A stretch of DNA of 29,087 nucleotides, taken from IMG/VR virus record IMGVR_UViG_3300034073_003589, positions 1 to 29,087 of that record; one strand, given 5' to 3'. The translations under genes and the position numbers were made by a program. Origin of the DNA: a virus. Each line of letters starts with the position of its first letter. Within the stretch, counting starts at the first letter, position 1. Below are positions 2,420 to 27,034 of the stretch, one piece after another. The notes under the pieces were generated by a model. That model searched no databases. It was not told where the DNA came from and was given only the letters and a program-made list of their open reading frames with translations.

Positions 2420-3025
2420 TTACACCTCCGCCGTAAAAAGATATTTTAAACAGCGACCACGCTTTACGGCGCTAATCCAAGTCGTGAATTTATATCCATA
2501 AATACTAGCTACGGACTTATAGCCCTGATGCGTCCCAAGTATTTCACCAGTTTCCCTACAAACAACATTATAAAATGGAAGCCTTGAAATTCTGGCTTTG
2601 ACAGACTTTTGGCTTTTCGCTTTTTGATTTTCAGAGGTATGAAAGTTCTTCCACATTTTTTCTAAAACTGGACGACGGGCCTCGCTAGAAGCAAAATGTA
2701 TATGCTTTTGTCTCGTAGACTCAAGATAAAATATTTTTCTATTCTCTTTGCCTCCGAGACTTCCATTTAGACCATTGGCACAAGAATCATATTTTTTAAT
2801 AAAATATTTTTCCATTTGATCTAATTCTTCCAAGCTCATACATTCTAATAAAATCTCGAAATGAAAATAATCAAAACCATTTTTTCTAATTAAGTCGTAA
2901 AACTTCCCAGATTTGCATTGTTTAATTGCGTGGCACTTGTGCTCGCTTATTCTGGTTTTTAATGTTCGACAGGTTGCCCCAATATAAACCTCTTTATTTT
3001 TCCCCTCGGCTTTATAAACGATCAC
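2420..3025 (-). CDS. GIY-YIG homing endonuclease (free-standing)
   Basis: A 201-residue protein whose N-terminal domain fits the GIY-YIG nuclease fold: VY near residue 3, VYIGAT at 13-18, R25 and H29 in the following helix, an LDQMEKYFI helix with the likely catalytic Glu, and NGLNGSLGG. The C-terminus (FYNVVCRETGEILGTHQGYKSVASIYG) resembles a NUMOD1/helix-turn-helix DNA-binding module. Such proteins are selfish: they cut alleles lacking the gene so that repair copies it in. The GTG start overlaps the stop of the upstream tail gene (GTGA), and its last codons (GCG GAG GTG TAA) supply the ribosome binding site of the tail fibre gene. It sits between two tail genes and is not in an intron that I can see. 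It is richer in Lys and Asn than its neighbours, consistent with transfer. Confidence 0.85.
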   Translation of the reverse strand: MIVYKAEGKNKEVYIGATCRTLKTRISEHKCHAIKQCKSGKFYDLIRKNGFDYFHFEILLECMSLEELDQMEKYFIKKYDSCANGLNGSLGGKENRKIFYLESTRQKHIHFASSEARRPVLEKMWKNFHTSENQKAKSQKSVKARISRLPFYNVVCRETGEILGTHQGYKSVASIYGYKFTTWISAVKRGRCLKYLFTAEV

Positions 3026-3795
3026 GTTAAAACCCTCAAAGTAATAAGACCAATATCGTAGATGTCCGTTAGGTTTTGATCAATTAGCTCGCGAAGCTTA
3101 AAGCCCGTCCCATTTGAAAAACCTGGTGTGCTTTCTAATAAAACCTTTGAAAATGAACTTGGATTGGCGGTGTCTGGAACAAACTCAAAAGGAGCTTTTG
3201 ATATTCCATACCTCAAAAAATCAAGAGCATCCTCAACACCAGTTGGATTATTGTAAATAACTCGACCATCCATTGGAAGGTTTGTTACAAATTTAATTTC
3301 AAGCTCAATGAATTTTTCGCGACCAAATGTCACAACTTCCACTCGGCCACTTGCTGCTTTATTGACAGTAGCATCCGCAAGCTGTTCAAAATGCTCTTTC
3401 GGAATATATCGCTGTAACCAAAATTGGGGAAAGTATTCCGAGCCTGATCCAAAATTCCCCACATAAGTCGATGCGCCTGTCAAATCTGTTCCAGTTGAAA
3501 AGCCCATCAAATCAAAAGCACTGCTCGACAGTGTCGTGCCTGTTCCAGTTAATAAACTAAAATTTGATGACGCTGAAACTGTAATGACATTCGTTGATCG
3601 ATTAACCGTGACTGTGTAAGTCAATGCGCCTTCAGTCTCAAGAGCTGTTTTGATTGCCACTAAAAACTCAGACAAAGAGTAACTTCCTGGCTCAATCACT
3701 GCGTTAAGCTCTGAACCACCTTCATCAAAAGGAATGTTTTGATTTGTTAAATCAACCGTGTGTCCATAGTTGAATTTTGATCTTGAATAAATCAT
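3022..3795 (-). CDS. Tail protein, probably distal tail/tip component
   Basis: 257 residues, not recognised as a named family. The N-terminal half has a beta-rich pattern (EPGSYSLSEFLVAIKTALE, then TYTVTVNRSTNVITVSASSNFSLL) seen in phage tail and fibre proteins, where a position/ansatz-like segment is followed by an immunoglobulin-like fold. The second half (PQFWLQRYIPKEHFEQLADATVNKAASGRVEVV) probably interacts with the tube or tip. It follows the tape measure gene with an ATGA overlap, the usual place for a distal tail (Dit-like) protein in siphoviruses. The role is inferred from position; the sequence alone only supports a structural beta-rich protein. Confidence 0.6.
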   Translation of the reverse strand: MIYSRSKFNYGHTVDLTNQNIPFDEGGSELNAVIEPGSYSLSEFLVAIKTALETEGALTYTVTVNRSTNVITVSASSNFSLLTGTGTTLSSSAFDLMGFSTGTDLTGASTYVGNFGSGSEYFPQFWLQRYIPKEHFEQLADATVNKAASGRVEVVTFGREKFIELEIKFVTNLPMDGRVIYNNPTGVEDALDFLRYGISKAPFEFVPDTANPSSFSKVLLESTPGFSNGTGFKLRELIDQNLTDIYDIGLITLRVLT

Positions 3796-22716: not shown

Positions 22717-22917
22717 TCATTTTTCATCCCCAGTTTTTTGATTCACATCCATGCCAGCCAGAATACTTTCGGCGCGTTTTTTATGATCCAAGCCCAAATG
22801 TCCAATCGCATAAGTGACAGCTTTTAAAAGTCTGATGTTTTGCGTTTGTTGTTTTTCAAGCTCTTTTAACAAAATCCTGGTTTCGATTGTGCTTGATGGG
22901 TCCATTTGTGGATTCAT
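22717..22917 (-). CDS. Hypothetical protein
   Basis: 66 residues, ATG 22917 overlapping the resolvase stop (ATGA) with AAGGTAA upstream. Helical and charged (IETRILLKELEKQQTQNIRLLKAVTYAIGHLGLDHKKRAESILAGM), consistent with a coiled coil plus a short helical domain. No family recognised. Part of the early operon between the resolvase and the methyltransferase stub. Confidence 0.5.
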   Translation of the reverse strand: MNPQMDPSSTIETRILLKELEKQQTQNIRLLKAVTYAIGHLGLDHKKRAESILAGMDVNQKTGDEK

Positions 22918-23312
22918 GCGCTTACCTTTTTTGTTTTAATTTTGGTTAAAGTGATTTCAGCTCGTTCATTTGCATCGCCAAAATGCTTTTCGGCAAACAC
23001 CGAAACTATTTGCTTGTCGTTGTGGATGACCCCAGATTTTTGCAGCACGTCAAACGGTCCACCAAGGCAGTTGTCGATATCGAGTTCATTTTGATGATTT
23101 TTGAAAAAAAAGTGCATTTCTGCATGGATCAGATCAGACTTATTAAATAACGCGGTGTCTGGCGCTCTAATCGCCGCAAGGTGCGCTTCAGATTGCCTGG
23201 CCCATAGCACGTACTGGGTTGATGGCAAAACGATTGTGCGGCCAAATTTGGAGCGAATTACCTTCTTGCTGTTTTTTTTAGCAACAACGCGCCCAGGCAA
23301 AATCAGCTTCAT
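22914..23312 (-). CDS. RusA-type Holliday junction resolvase
   Basis: 132 residues from ATG 23312, which overlaps the upstream stop (ATGA) and has GAAGG nine bases before it; a longer frame from 23366 is disfavoured. The core ELDIDNCLGGPFDVLQKSGVIHNDKQIV has the RusA pattern, with the D-x-D-N pair and the second Asp in N-D-K-Q, the metal-binding acidic residues of the family. The N-terminus (MKLILPGRVVAKKNSKKVIRS) is basic for DNA binding. RusA enzymes cut four-way junctions made during recombination or replication. A neighbour of the replication genes, as usual. Confidence 0.8.
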   Translation of the reverse strand: MKLILPGRVVAKKNSKKVIRSKFGRTIVLPSTQYVLWARQSEAHLAAIRAPDTALFNKSDLIHAEMHFFFKNHQNELDIDNCLGGPFDVLQKSGVIHNDKQIVSVFAEKHFGDANERAEITLTKIKTKKVSA

Positions 23313-23932
23313 GGGTTTTGGCCTTCGCTCAAACTTTTTTCTAGGTCCTGGTAAAAATCTCGCCAATAACCTTCGCTAAATTTTCTGGTTCGCTCCCATT
23401 TCATCACAAGTTCCCAGACTTCGCCTTTTTTTTCCTGAATCTGATTAAGCACTGGGGTTTTGTTTTTTTTCGGAACCCATTCTTTGTGCTCACTTTCATC
23501 AAACGACAAACGCTCAAAAATGTTTGAAAGCGAGTAATTCCACATCGGAAATTTTTCCCATCTTATTCCTCTGAAGATTTTTTGACCGATTTCGCAATGA
23601 CACCGAATAAAAGCTTTTTGACCGCCAATTTTTTTCTTCAAGGTATTCACGCCAGAATCGCCGCACCAGTGACACTCATTTTCTGGCCGCACAAATTTGT
23701 CATCGATCCCCACGTTGCGGTAATACTCGCGCATACCAGCTTCAATGATGTCTTTTGGTAGCGGAGCGGTTTTAAAGCTGATTAGAAAATGCGTGATGAT
23801 CGACGCAAATTGTTTTGCAGAAAGCTTAACAAGCGCGTTGTAAATCAATTTTGTCCGCTCGTTTGAATAAGCCTTTTCCCCAAAAGTGGCATGAAGCCTG
23901 GACATTTGAGTTTGAAATTCTTCAAGGTTCAT
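23309..23932 (-). CDS. Replication protein with a zinc-finger-like motif (helicase-loader-like)
   Basis: 207 residues. After a helical N-terminal third (LEEFQTQMSRLHATFGEKAYSNERTKLIYNALVKL) there is ECHWCGDSG ... FIRCHCEIG, a C-x2-C plus C-x-C arrangement that should bind zinc. The rest is helical and charged, with no P-loop. It follows the initiator gene with an ATGA overlap, the usual place of a helicase loader or its partner, and the N-terminus recalls loader proteins that lost or never had the ATPase part. The function is inferred from position and the zinc motif. Confidence 0.55.
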   Translation of the reverse strand: MNLEEFQTQMSRLHATFGEKAYSNERTKLIYNALVKLSAKQFASIITHFLISFKTAPLPKDIIEAGMREYYRNVGIDDKFVRPENECHWCGDSGVNTLKKKIGGQKAFIRCHCEIGQKIFRGIRWEKFPMWNYSLSNIFERLSFDESEHKEWVPKKNKTPVLNQIQEKKGEVWELVMKWERTRKFSEGYWRDFYQDLEKSLSEGQNP

Positions 23933-24684
23933 TTGTTTTTCTCGCTTTCGATTTCATTCCAAAAAGATTTCCAATCGAAACCTTTTTTTTCTTCGATCAA
24001 TTCGGGTTTTAACCAATCTTCAAAATCTTCAAGCCAGTTGTGCAGGAAAGGAATGTATTTACGCTCGGTGCCTTCTCGCTGGTGGTAATCAGCAAAGTTT
24101 TTGACCGCAACCTTTAGGTTTTCAAATTCTTCTTGGGTTTTTATTTTTTCCGACAGCGCAATCATGGCTCGGTTTTTTTTCTGAAAATTCGGGTAGTCGT
24201 TAATTACCGAAAGGTAATTAAACCTAAACCTGTTTTCCTGTCGCTGTGCGTCTGAAATTTGGTTTTGGTGCTTATAATTATCTTTATCCTTTTCCTTTTC
24301 CTTATCTTTATCCTTAGCACCTTGCAAGGGGCTTGGATACCCCTTGGATACCCCATATTTTTTAAGAAGATTCATCACCGAAAGATGTACTTTGTTGTTC
24401 GGGTTTAAATCCGACACTCCGCATCCATACTGAAATTCGATGAACCCCGAAATCCAAATTTTATCGCTTTTCACAAAAAATAGACGATCCCCGAAGTTTG
24501 ATTTAAGATCATCGACCGTCACTTTTTGGTTAACGAAATGGGACAGCGTTTCCATATCTAAATCCCAAAAACCTGCGTGATCGCATTTATCGCAAAGATA
24601 CCGCCAGGTTTCCTTCATGGTTGGGTTTAGTTTTCTAAACCACCCCTTTTCCCATATACAGGTATCCGTAAAGCGTTTCGCCAT
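23929..24684 (-). CDS. Replication initiator / replisome organiser with internal repeats
   Basis: 251 residues. The N-terminus (KRFTDTCIWEKGWFRKLNPTMKETWRYLCDKCDHAGFWDLD) is the winged-helix opening seen in phage initiator proteins, where F-x-D-T-x-I-W-E-K-x-W-F-R-K-L is recurrent. A Lys/Asp/Glu linker (about residues 123-138, KDKDKEKEKDKD) follows, then a helical C-terminal part (NYLSVINDYPNFQKKNRAMIALSEKIKTQEEFENLKVAVKNF) that resembles DnaD/helicase-loading regions. The gene itself carries two GGGGTATCCAA repeats beside a purine tract, so it may contain the origin, as lambda O does. It ends with an ATGA overlap to the loader-like gene. Confidence 0.7.
   Translation of the reverse strand: MAKRFTDTCIWEKGWFRKLNPTMKETWRYLCDKCDHAGFWDLDMETLSHFVNQKVTVDDLKSNFGDRLFFVKSDKIWISGFIEFQYGCGVSDLNPNNKVHLSVMNLLKKYGVSKGYPSPLQGAKDKDKEKEKDKDNYKHQNQISDAQRQENRFRFNYLSVINDYPNFQKKNRAMIALSEKIKTQEEFENLKVAVKNFADYHQREGTERKYIPFLHNWLEDFEDWLKPELIEEKKGFDWKSFWNEIESEKNK
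24278..24316. repeat. Purine-rich (minus) / pyrimidine-rich (plus) tract with 12-base direct repeats
   Basis: TTATCTTTATCC occurs at 24278-24289 and 24302-24313, separated by TTTTCCTTTTCC. It encodes the K/D/E linker. The spacing (24, a multiple of 3) is consistent with protein-driven repetition, but the low melting energy beside the tandem GGGGTATCCAA copies fits an unwinding element. Confidence 0.45.
24333..24354 (-). repeat. Two tandem GGGGTATCCAA repeats inside the initiator gene (iteron candidates)
   Basis: TTGGATACCCC occurs twice on the plus strand (24333-24343, 24344-24354), adjacent and 11 bases apart, about one helical turn. Eleven is not a multiple of three, so the copies encode different residues (GVSK versus GYPS) and the repetition is at DNA level. 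The same motif GGGGTAT-N-CAA is found twice in the control region at 26931-26963. Confidence 0.65.
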
Positions 24685-24763: not shown

Positions 24764-25012
24764 TTACATCCTGACTTGAAAAGTTTTTGGCTTTCTAATC
24801 AGAAAAAACCCACGCTCTTGGCAAAAGTTTGATTTCTGATTTAAGCCTGATTGATCCGATCTTAAATCAAACCAATCGGGTTTTTCGCAAGCCTTCCAAA
24901 TCTCAAAGCAAACTTGATCGGGATTTATTGAACGACTCTCCACTCGCAAGCACTGATCAAATGATCTGGCCTGGGCGTGAAGGCCAAGTAAAAAACTAAA
25001 AAGGAATATCAT
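24764..25012 (-). CDS. Small secreted Cys-containing protein
   Basis: 82 residues, overlapping the end of the SSB-like gene by 17 bases. The N-terminus (MIFLFSFLLGLHAQA) is a signal peptide with a likely cleavage after AQA at residue 15, and the mature part has four Cys (21, 35, 42, 64), suggesting disulfides in the periplasm. A secreted product is unusual in an early replication block. No lipobox, so not an Rz1-type spanin. Function is not recognised; host-envelope interference or superinfection exclusion are possibilities. Confidence 0.5.
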   Translation of the reverse strand: MIFLFSFLLGLHAQARSFDQCLRVESRSINPDQVCFEIWKACEKPDWFDLRSDQSGLNQKSNFCQERGFFLIRKPKTFQVRM

Positions 25013-25502
25013 CGTCAGCCCCCGGAGCTAGGTTTTTAACACCTTCTGGACGCTGATAACCTTCGCCATTGTGTTTTTGCTTTGTCAGCTCGTTAAGCTT
25101 CACTGATTTTATTTTTTGCAAATCCTTATAAGTGAGGGCTTGCTTTAACAAAGGCAAAACCGAGTAAGTGGTATCGGTTCCGGTTCCGGTTCGAGTAATT
25201 TTCACAACCGTGGATTCAAGCGGATATTCTTCATTGATTTCTGATAAAAGCCTGTAAACCGTAACCCCTTGCTCGAAAACCATTGCGATAAAATCTTGGT
25301 TTTCTTTTTTCAAAAAATTCACTCGAAACCTAAAGCTTGCACCTTCTGTCCCCTCGGCGACCTCACTTGATTTTCCATTCTCCCATTTAATGAAAAATTC
25401 TTTTATATCCCCTCGAAAAACCCCTTGAACTGATTCCCCATCCTTAAGCTTTAAAAAAAGCTTTGATCCCCCTGTTTCCAAAACATCTTTTCTAAAATTC
25501 AT
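24996..25502 (-). CDS. Single-stranded DNA-binding protein (SSB-like)
   Basis: 168 residues from ATG 25502 (AAGGG upstream); ATG 25517 is an alternative adding five residues. The body is beta-rich and OB-fold-like (KLFLKLKDGESVQGVFRGDIKEFFIKW; FRFRVNFLKKENQDFIAMVFEQGVTVY). The C-terminus ends GADDDIPF, the acidic tip by which bacterial and many phage SSBs dock replication and repair partners. The rest does not look like bacterial SSB, so it is a divergent phage type. It lies between the RecB-like nuclease and the initiator genes. Confidence 0.8.
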   Translation of the reverse strand: MNFRKDVLETGGSKLFLKLKDGESVQGVFRGDIKEFFIKWENGKSSEVAEGTEGASFRFRVNFLKKENQDFIAMVFEQGVTVYRLLSEINEEYPLESTVVKITRTGTGTDTTYSVLPLLKQALTYKDLQKIKSVKLNELTKQKHNGEGYQRPEGVKNLAPGADDDIPF

Positions 25503-25519
25503 TTGATACCCTTTCATGG

Positions 25520-26227
25520 TTATTTAGTTATTTCTTGTAAAACTCTGTGCAAATTCAGTGCTGCTTTAAAGCCCTCAAAATCAAGCTCAAAGTCGGTGAA
25601 TGTTTTAAATTCAAATTGTCCTGATTTTTTATCAAAGCGAATAATAAACCGAGCTGGAAATCTAAAGCCTTTTTCTTCTTCTAAAGCCTGCTGATAAGCA
25701 GCAGTCTGAAATCTCATCTCAGGGTAAATCCCGCTTGATGTTTTAATATCACCAACTCCCAAAACCCCATCGATTTTAGCTACAAAATCACAAGTGCCAG
25801 CATAATAAAATTCTTTTGAGAAAACCCTACGCTCACTTGCAATGACTTTGACATCATGAGCATCAAGCCATTTGTGAAATGCCTCGACACCTTTTTTTGC
25901 TTCATCGGTTTCTAAAATAGGTAGCGTTTGTTTTTTAAAATAACTTTCTGCGTATTGATGAACGTTGGTTCCACTATCGCCTGAAGCTTCCATTTTTCTT
26001 CGATGAGCGGTTTTTGATTCTTTTGCGATAACTTCTAAATCACTCCTTCCGGATTTTAATTGATCAAAAAAATAAGCGCTTGCCATGTTTGCAGACCATT
26101 GAATCAGCATCGGCTTACTAATCACCTGAAGAATTGTCGTGACTCCTGGGACATAGTTCCCATTCCAAGTGTATGCGTCATGAGATTCATCAAATAAAAG
26201 CTCCCCACCATGAATGATTTGACTCAT
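25520..26227 (-). CDS. PD-(D/E)XK exonuclease (RecB/Cas4-like)
   Basis: 235 residues. The N-terminal V-P-G-V-T-T-I-L and helical part are followed by the family's catalytic set: H90 in GTNVHQYAE, E132 in ASERR, D147 in AGTCDF, D160-x-K162 in GDIKTS, and the Q-x-x-A-Y-Q helix after. Such enzymes degrade DNA ends or process recombination intermediates; with the SSB-like protein and RusA they suggest a phage recombination-dependent replication set. No annealing protein (Red beta-like) is recognised nearby. The start overlaps the 45-residue gene (ATGA). Confidence 0.8.
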   Translation of the reverse strand: MSQIIHGGELLFDESHDAYTWNGNYVPGVTTILQVISKPMLIQWSANMASAYFFDQLKSGRSDLEVIAKESKTAHRRKMEASGDSGTNVHQYAESYFKKQTLPILETDEAKKGVEAFHKWLDAHDVKVIASERRVFSKEFYYAGTCDFVAKIDGVLGVGDIKTSSGIYPEMRFQTAAYQQALEEEKGFRFPARFIIRFDKKSGQFEFKTFTDFELDFEGFKAALNLHRVLQEITK

Positions 26228-26918: not shown

Positions 26919-26959
26919 CAAATTTGAAATGGGGTATTCAAATTTGAAAATGGGGTATA
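26919..26959. repeat. Two tandem repeats containing CAAATTTG and GGGGTAT
   Basis: Unit CAAATTTGAAATGGGGTATT (20 bases) then CAAATTTGAAAATGGGGTATA (21 bases), followed by CAAAAC, which continues the pattern. CAAATTTG is a palindrome. The GGGGTAT-N-CAA core recurs in the initiator gene at 24333-24354. Lies 29 bases upstream of the -35, a position for activator, repressor or initiator binding. Confidence 0.7.
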
Positions 26960-27034
26960 CAAAACCTACAAAAACCCCCATTTAGTACGACTTAAACAAA
27001 TCAGAACCAAAAAAAGAACAAATAAGTCTTAAAT

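Follow-up and report, generated by a model that had tools for sequence, protein, structure and literature searches.

A putative replication origin made of 11-bp units and a purine tract inside a viral initiator gene

Results

The initiator gene and its neighbourhood

The window analyzed here is a viral record of 29,087 bases. On its minus strand, a gene at 23929-24684 encodes a 251-aa initiator that consists of a winged-helix N-domain (residues 1-112), a charged linker with a repetitive peptide (KDKDKEKE) and a weakly conserved C-terminal part. The AlphaFold model of the N-domain, built from 62 sequences (pLDDT 94.3), shows the helix-strand order of a winged helix. Its best VIA matches are the winged helices of CRP/FNR, MCM8, ORC/Cdc6 and RepA_N (Z 4.6-6.0), scores that are indicative of a common fold only; the first named match among viral models (BFVD) is a 'Replisome organizer' (E 5e-4, TM 0.60), and a Foldseek comparison of the N-domain with the PDB yielded no significant match. 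Individual family members match the PHROG replisome organizer, DnaD-like loader and O-like families, and the C-terminal half of the initiator has a weak match to a PHROG replication initiation protein (E 1e-4). In Pfam, the initiator matched neither Phage_rep_O nor the RepA_N domain; a match to 'HIN' (E 0.003) was below the cut-off and was taken as chance.

Directly downstream, and overlapping the end of the initiator gene, lies a candidate helicase loader gene (23309-23932, minus strand), so designated by position. Its product has no family match in Pfam and PHROG profile searches; in several relatives, the downstream neighbour gives weak matches to phrog_10105/9804 and to phrog_2289 'helicase loader'. 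The same operon, also on the minus strand, encodes an SSB-like protein (24996-25517; phrog_1192, E 1.7e-5) and an exonuclease (25520-26227; phrog_298, E 1e-35), and a RusA-like resolvase (22914-23366, minus strand; PF05866, E 8e-10) is encoded downstream. Elsewhere in the window, the product of a minus-strand ORF at 2420-3025 starts with MIVYKAEGKNKEVYIGATCRTLKTRISEHK and resembles a GIY-YIG endonuclease, as judged by eye only.

Four 11-bp units and a purine tract in the linker

A previous reading of this DNA, made from the sequence only, had pointed to two tandem 11-base repeats in the initiator linker, out of codon phase and 17 bases from an easily melted, purine-rich tract. The repeats are exact copies of GGGGTATCCAA on the coding (minus) strand of the linker, at 24344-24354 (unit 1) and 24333-24343 (unit 2), and, 11 not being divisible by 3, they are indeed out of codon phase. 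The count of two holds for the exact copies; two additional minus-strand units had been missed, namely, GCCCCTTGCAA at 24322-24332 (unit 3, direct reading), in the orientation opposite to that of units 1 and 2, and the degenerate GGTGCTAAGGA at 24311-24321 (unit 4, direct reading), which runs into the purine tract. Units 3 and 4 share the 11-bp register of the exact pair, and the array therefore comprises four units rather than two. Together, units 3 and 4 form a palindrome at 24316-24333. The segment 24332-24354 was identified by TRF as an 11-bp array with 100% matches, and the GGGGTATCCAA pair provides the single occurrence, in the whole window, of a 12-base identity run at lag 11; no such run was found in 60 first-order Markov sequences. 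In tandem form, the window unit itself is present at 4 loci in viral contigs, 0 of which come from the window's initiator family, and at the nucleotide level the window region had no match in phage genomes.

The tract occupies 24278-24316 on the minus strand, is composed of A+T-rich, purine-rich hexamers (AAGGAT/AAAGAT/AAGGAA), codes for KDKDKEKEKDKD and is the proposed duplex-unwinding element. Its coding strand is 87% purine and 74% A+T; it belongs to the least stable 1% of the 39-mers of the window, and its purine asymmetry is equalled at about 0.007% of the window positions. The tract is close to the repeats, as had been claimed, although the spacer that separates it from the exact copies is 16 bases long, not 17.

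Conservation at the DNA level among relatives

Protein similarity was the sole basis for gathering relatives: the window protein gave 23 and small family alignments many more, resulting in 186 genes (window included) and 73 representatives with less than 80% identity in the N-domain. An exact repeat of at least 7 bases at lag 11 was detected in the linker DNA of 40 of the 72 diverged relatives, compared to 2.5 expected under synonymous recoding (maximum 6). The excess extends to lag 22 (13 of 72 genes vs. 1.0 in the recodings, maximum 4) and lag 33 (12 of 72 vs. 3.0, maximum 8), whereas two control segments from the same genes contained 1 and 0 lag-11 repeats. When 62 genes were aligned at the tract, G+C content peaked at −39..−36, −28..−24, −17..−13 and −6..−2 relative to the tract start, with profile autocorrelations of 0.79 at 11 and 0.56 at 22; in the window, units 3 and 4 fall on the lattice positions of the −17..−13 and −6..−2 peaks, respectively. 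At conserved degenerate residues, codon identity was 0.78 over the 12 codons that lead up to the tract vs. 0.535 in the N-domain (59 independent gene pairs; Fisher P 1e-21, Wilcoxon P 5e-9). Both the lag-11 excess over the recodings and the elevated codon identity before the tract agree with the proposal of the sequence-only reading that the repeats are preserved as DNA rather than as protein.

These comparisons bear on the alternative that the repeats are a by-product of coding for a low-complexity, charged linker or arose by chance. The peptide of the linker does have a repetitive sequence, and a short repeat in two copies frequently arises by chance; against this stand the absence of the 12-base run from all 50,000 synonymous recodings of the window linker peptide, the family-wide excess at lags 11, 22 and 33, and the conservation of codons before the tract, so that we consider a coding by-product or chance extremely improbable.

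The relatives with the same protein, in which conservation of the repeats had been named as a test, retain in most cases the layout of array and tract but not the repeat sequence itself. The units vary between phages (AAGCCCCTTAC, AAGGGGCTTAT, ATACCCTATCG, GGGGTCAA and AAGGACCTAAT), whereas the unit spacing and the distance to the tract are constant. Three relatives (L128, L136 and L179) have units and lack the tract, and three others (L105, L116 and L160) have neither. The L128 linker (initiator start 10001) contains about nine 11-bp units in a row, of the AAGGACCTTAC and AAGCCCCTAAT types, which are not followed by a purine tract. In the phage collection, a search by protein similarity to the window initiator led to a single record, Pseudanabaena phage Pan5 (L187; UXO94092.1, annotated as a hypothetical protein), in the linker of which GGGGCATCTATCCCCCATAAATGGGGG precedes a KEKDKDKDKD tract. 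Genes with GGGGC-type units and those with GGGTA-type units differ at positions 57-61 of the predicted recognition helix; most of the T-type genes belong to one clade, and the link between unit type and initiator residues was therefore set aside as confounded.

A second initiator family recovered by a protein-blind scan

Viral contigs were scanned for AAGCCCCTTNNAAGCCCCTT, i.e. AAGCCCCTT twice at 11-bp spacing, without reference to any protein. The scan yielded at least 120 viral loci, and about 117 of the 120 listed are located in initiator-like genes of at least two families. Among the matches listed, 35 belong to the first family, that of the window, by HMM (34 were assigned by script, and L038 was already known to be a member). 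A second family (HMM), with the sequence MRDYxKVSPxFW..., accounts for 77; the other eight include five that, judged by eye, resemble truncated or further initiators (L211, L251, L254, L279 and L306) and three that do not (L225, L245 and L259). The second family is found in phages of Acinetobacter, Escherichia and Klebsiella. Its N-domain has no detectable homology to that of the first family (hhalign E 0.008, probability 4.8); like the first family, it combines the 11-bp AAGCCCCTT lattice with a purine-rich hexamer tract, there coding for QEQEQE, and a DnaC-like or primase/helicase gene is next to the initiator. Unlike the first family, it has additional arrays, both close to the start codon and within the codons of the recognition helix. 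Some of the second-family matches lie in the EGASKGL codons, where protein conservation contributes, and this family was therefore left out of the statistics.

Cultured members of the second family were found by protein similarity, independently of the motif. In Fraca, PhiR5_2 and ST846-OXA48phi9.2, a lag-11 array is located ahead of a QEQE-type tract; the 30%-identical relative ST13-OXA48phi12.4 has a lag-11 array with a different unit, AAAGGGTTC, and Psychrobacillus phage PVJ1 one with ATACAGTATC. For several of these cultured-phage genes, the annotation reads replication protein O or replication protein, and the adjoining gene encodes DnaC or an ATPase.

Loci of the Acinetobacter-type family have up to three AAGCCCCTT lattices (L200:105-140, 320-360 and 585-660, and relatives), situated just upstream of the start codon, in the predicted recognition-helix codons (EGASKGL) and ahead of the QEQE tract. 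Both the helix-codon and the pre-tract arrays have switched to AAAGGGTT-type units in Klebsiella phage ST13-OXA48phi12.4 (L316). Two lattices with inverted copies of AAGCCCCTT, about 435 bp apart and with no long ORF, are present at L259:3270-3330 and 3705-3765, and may represent an origin or operator of this type in an intergenic position. Finally, at the contig end of L189 (reverse strand, 60-150), GGGGTATCCCA occurs twice at 11-bp spacing, followed by ACCATAA repeats, which looks like the same plan with another tract.

A hexamer tract that persists across reading frames

Family-wide, the tract is 81% purine and 71% A+T, and its 6-base period, mostly purine-rich, persists under different peptides. 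The tract peptide is KD/KE in 55 of the 73 first-family genes and QE in 26 of 39 second-family genes; the hexamer AAGGAC is read as KD or, in L043 and L046, as QG, and CAGGAA is read as QE or TG (L227; also L306). The tract DNA is thus retained across a change of frame, and this points to selection at the DNA level. The DnaD recognition element, TnnT repeated on one strand (PMC10201434), was considered as a general rule for the tract: TnnT is present on the pyrimidine strand of the KD, QE, QG and TG hexamers but not in the MD (ATGGAT) and QI (CAGATA) hexamers, and it was rejected in that role. The frame-independent hexamer poses the question of which factor recognizes a purine repeat of 6 bp at an origin.

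Selection on the nucleic acid could also act on the mRNA, through a hairpin or through Shine-Dalgarno-like AGGA repeats that pause ribosomes between the protein domains. Units of opposite orientation are able to pair, as at 24316-24333, and AGGA is found in many tracts. However, unit orientations vary freely among the relatives (>>>>, >><>, <<<> and <<<><), so that there is no common hairpin; furthermore, it is hard to see what a helical phasing of 11 bp would mean in RNA, and many tract hexamers (AAAGAT, CAGATA and AAGAAT) do not resemble a Shine-Dalgarno sequence. We therefore regard an element that works in mRNA as very improbable. At the level of DNA, the layout is one of four G/C-cored 11-bp units that are spaced by one helical turn, may point either way and end at the hexamer tract.

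A possible second site and the operator alternative

A possible second site, GGGGTATTCAA and GGGGTATACAA, with starts 21 bp apart, is located on the plus strand at 26931-26962, between genes and upstream of the replication operon, which runs leftward. It lies within a 21-bp tandem repeat (window 26919-26963, plus strand), each of its two elements has one mismatch from the in-gene unit, and about 0.5 matches of this quality are expected by chance. A promoter-type cluster of this kind was seen in the window only and in none of the relatives; the second site could be a chance occurrence, and an extra regulatory role of the units is possible.

The array might instead be an operator, not an origin, at which the initiator or some other regulator controls transcription. 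The possible pair of units upstream of the operon would suit this role, and so would the added array of Acinetobacter-type relatives, which overlaps the region immediately preceding the initiator start codon (L200, about 105-140). From an operator, however, one would not expect a position in mid-gene that is exact to the base with respect to a purine-rich hexamer tract, nor a tract kept across reading frames. An operator in place of an origin thus appears unlikely, and the roles of operator and origin can coexist.

Discussion

Origins located inside phage genes are known from a few model systems. In the window, the components of such a system are present in one gene: a DNA-binding N-domain, origin-like DNA that codes for the linker, and a separate C-terminal part. 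Lambda O, SPP1 gp38 and pSK41 Rep bind sites within their own genes, and an in-gene origin is therefore the natural reading of the array and tract. In our assessment, these elements are likely to be a replication origin of the phage, placed inside its own initiator gene and bound by its own initiator, a function that we infer by analogy with those systems. GC skew, a check suggested by the sequence-only reading, runs monotonically along the window and shows neither a turn nor a sign change at the site; it proved uninformative.

Under the proposed mechanism, the winged-helix N-domain would bind the units along one face of the helix and oligomerise; strain from the bound initiator complex would open the purine tract; one exposed strand would then take up the replicative helicase via the C-terminal part of the initiator and the small protein encoded by the neighbouring gene, such that replication would begin within the initiator gene.

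A broader proposition, on which we consider the evidence to be evenly balanced, is that the 11-bp G/C-cored lattice joined to a 6-bp-periodic purine tract is a widespread module, kept as DNA in several initiator families without detectable homology between their N-domains. The linker peptide (KDKD, QEQE, QGQG, TGTG or VTET) would then be largely a by-product of the origin DNA, and tandem AAGCCCCTT by itself would be a near-specific origin marker in uncharacterised viral genomes. The predicted origin is placed to the base in well over a hundred phages, mostly uncultured and some annotated with a hypothetical protein only, and the protein-blind DNA signature can be used to find further origins. 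The same phages form a natural comparison set, in which unit sequence, number and orientation vary while the spacing and tract distance are fixed, making the rules of initiator specificity and duplex opening directly testable.

No description of the 11-bp layout was found in the literature searched, with most subscription journals outside the reach of the search. Among the known systems, phage lambda places the repeats to which its initiator binds, and behind them a purine-rich A+T tract, midway through gene O (PMC7466680, PMC5043065). Like the window, lambda ori has repeats, built on C/G runs as are the window units, and then a strand-asymmetric, purine-rich A+T tract inside the initiator gene, with gene P next. 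The lambda iterons are 18 bp long with starts 20-24 bp apart, compared to 11 bp for the window units, and lambda ori has repeats at lags 20, 23 and 44 but none at 11. Lambda O shows no detectable sequence similarity to the 62-member N-domain alignment (hhalign probability 0.2, E 0.29). The lambda-O style ascribed to the locus by the sequence-only reading is thus apt for the layout, from in-gene sites to the purine tract to a candidate loader gene, and does not extend to homology detectable in the sequence or to iteron type; given the 11-bp units and the lack of detectable similarity to O, we describe the site as lambda-like in its presumed working and do not file it as a lambda ori.

In SPP1, oriL within gene 38, which encodes the origin-binding protein, contains direct repeats and an A+T-rich unwinding element; the helicase loader gp39 is required, and a second site, oriR, lies elsewhere (PMC6316719). 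By its published description, oriL is like the window in having repeats and an A+T-rich element in the initiator gene. The winged-helix N-domain of pSK41 Rep, of about 120 residues, binds four Rep boxes in the central part of rep, and the ori DNA encodes the Rep linker (PMC5703833). With a winged-helix N-domain, four mid-gene boxes and ori DNA coding for the linker, pSK41 rep is the nearest in plan, the resemblance of the window N-domain to RepA_N winged helices (Z 4.6-5.0) being that of a common fold only. Set beside these systems, the putative origin in the window would be a variant of the in-gene iteron type, set apart by its one-turn units and by a hexamer tract that does not depend on the frame.
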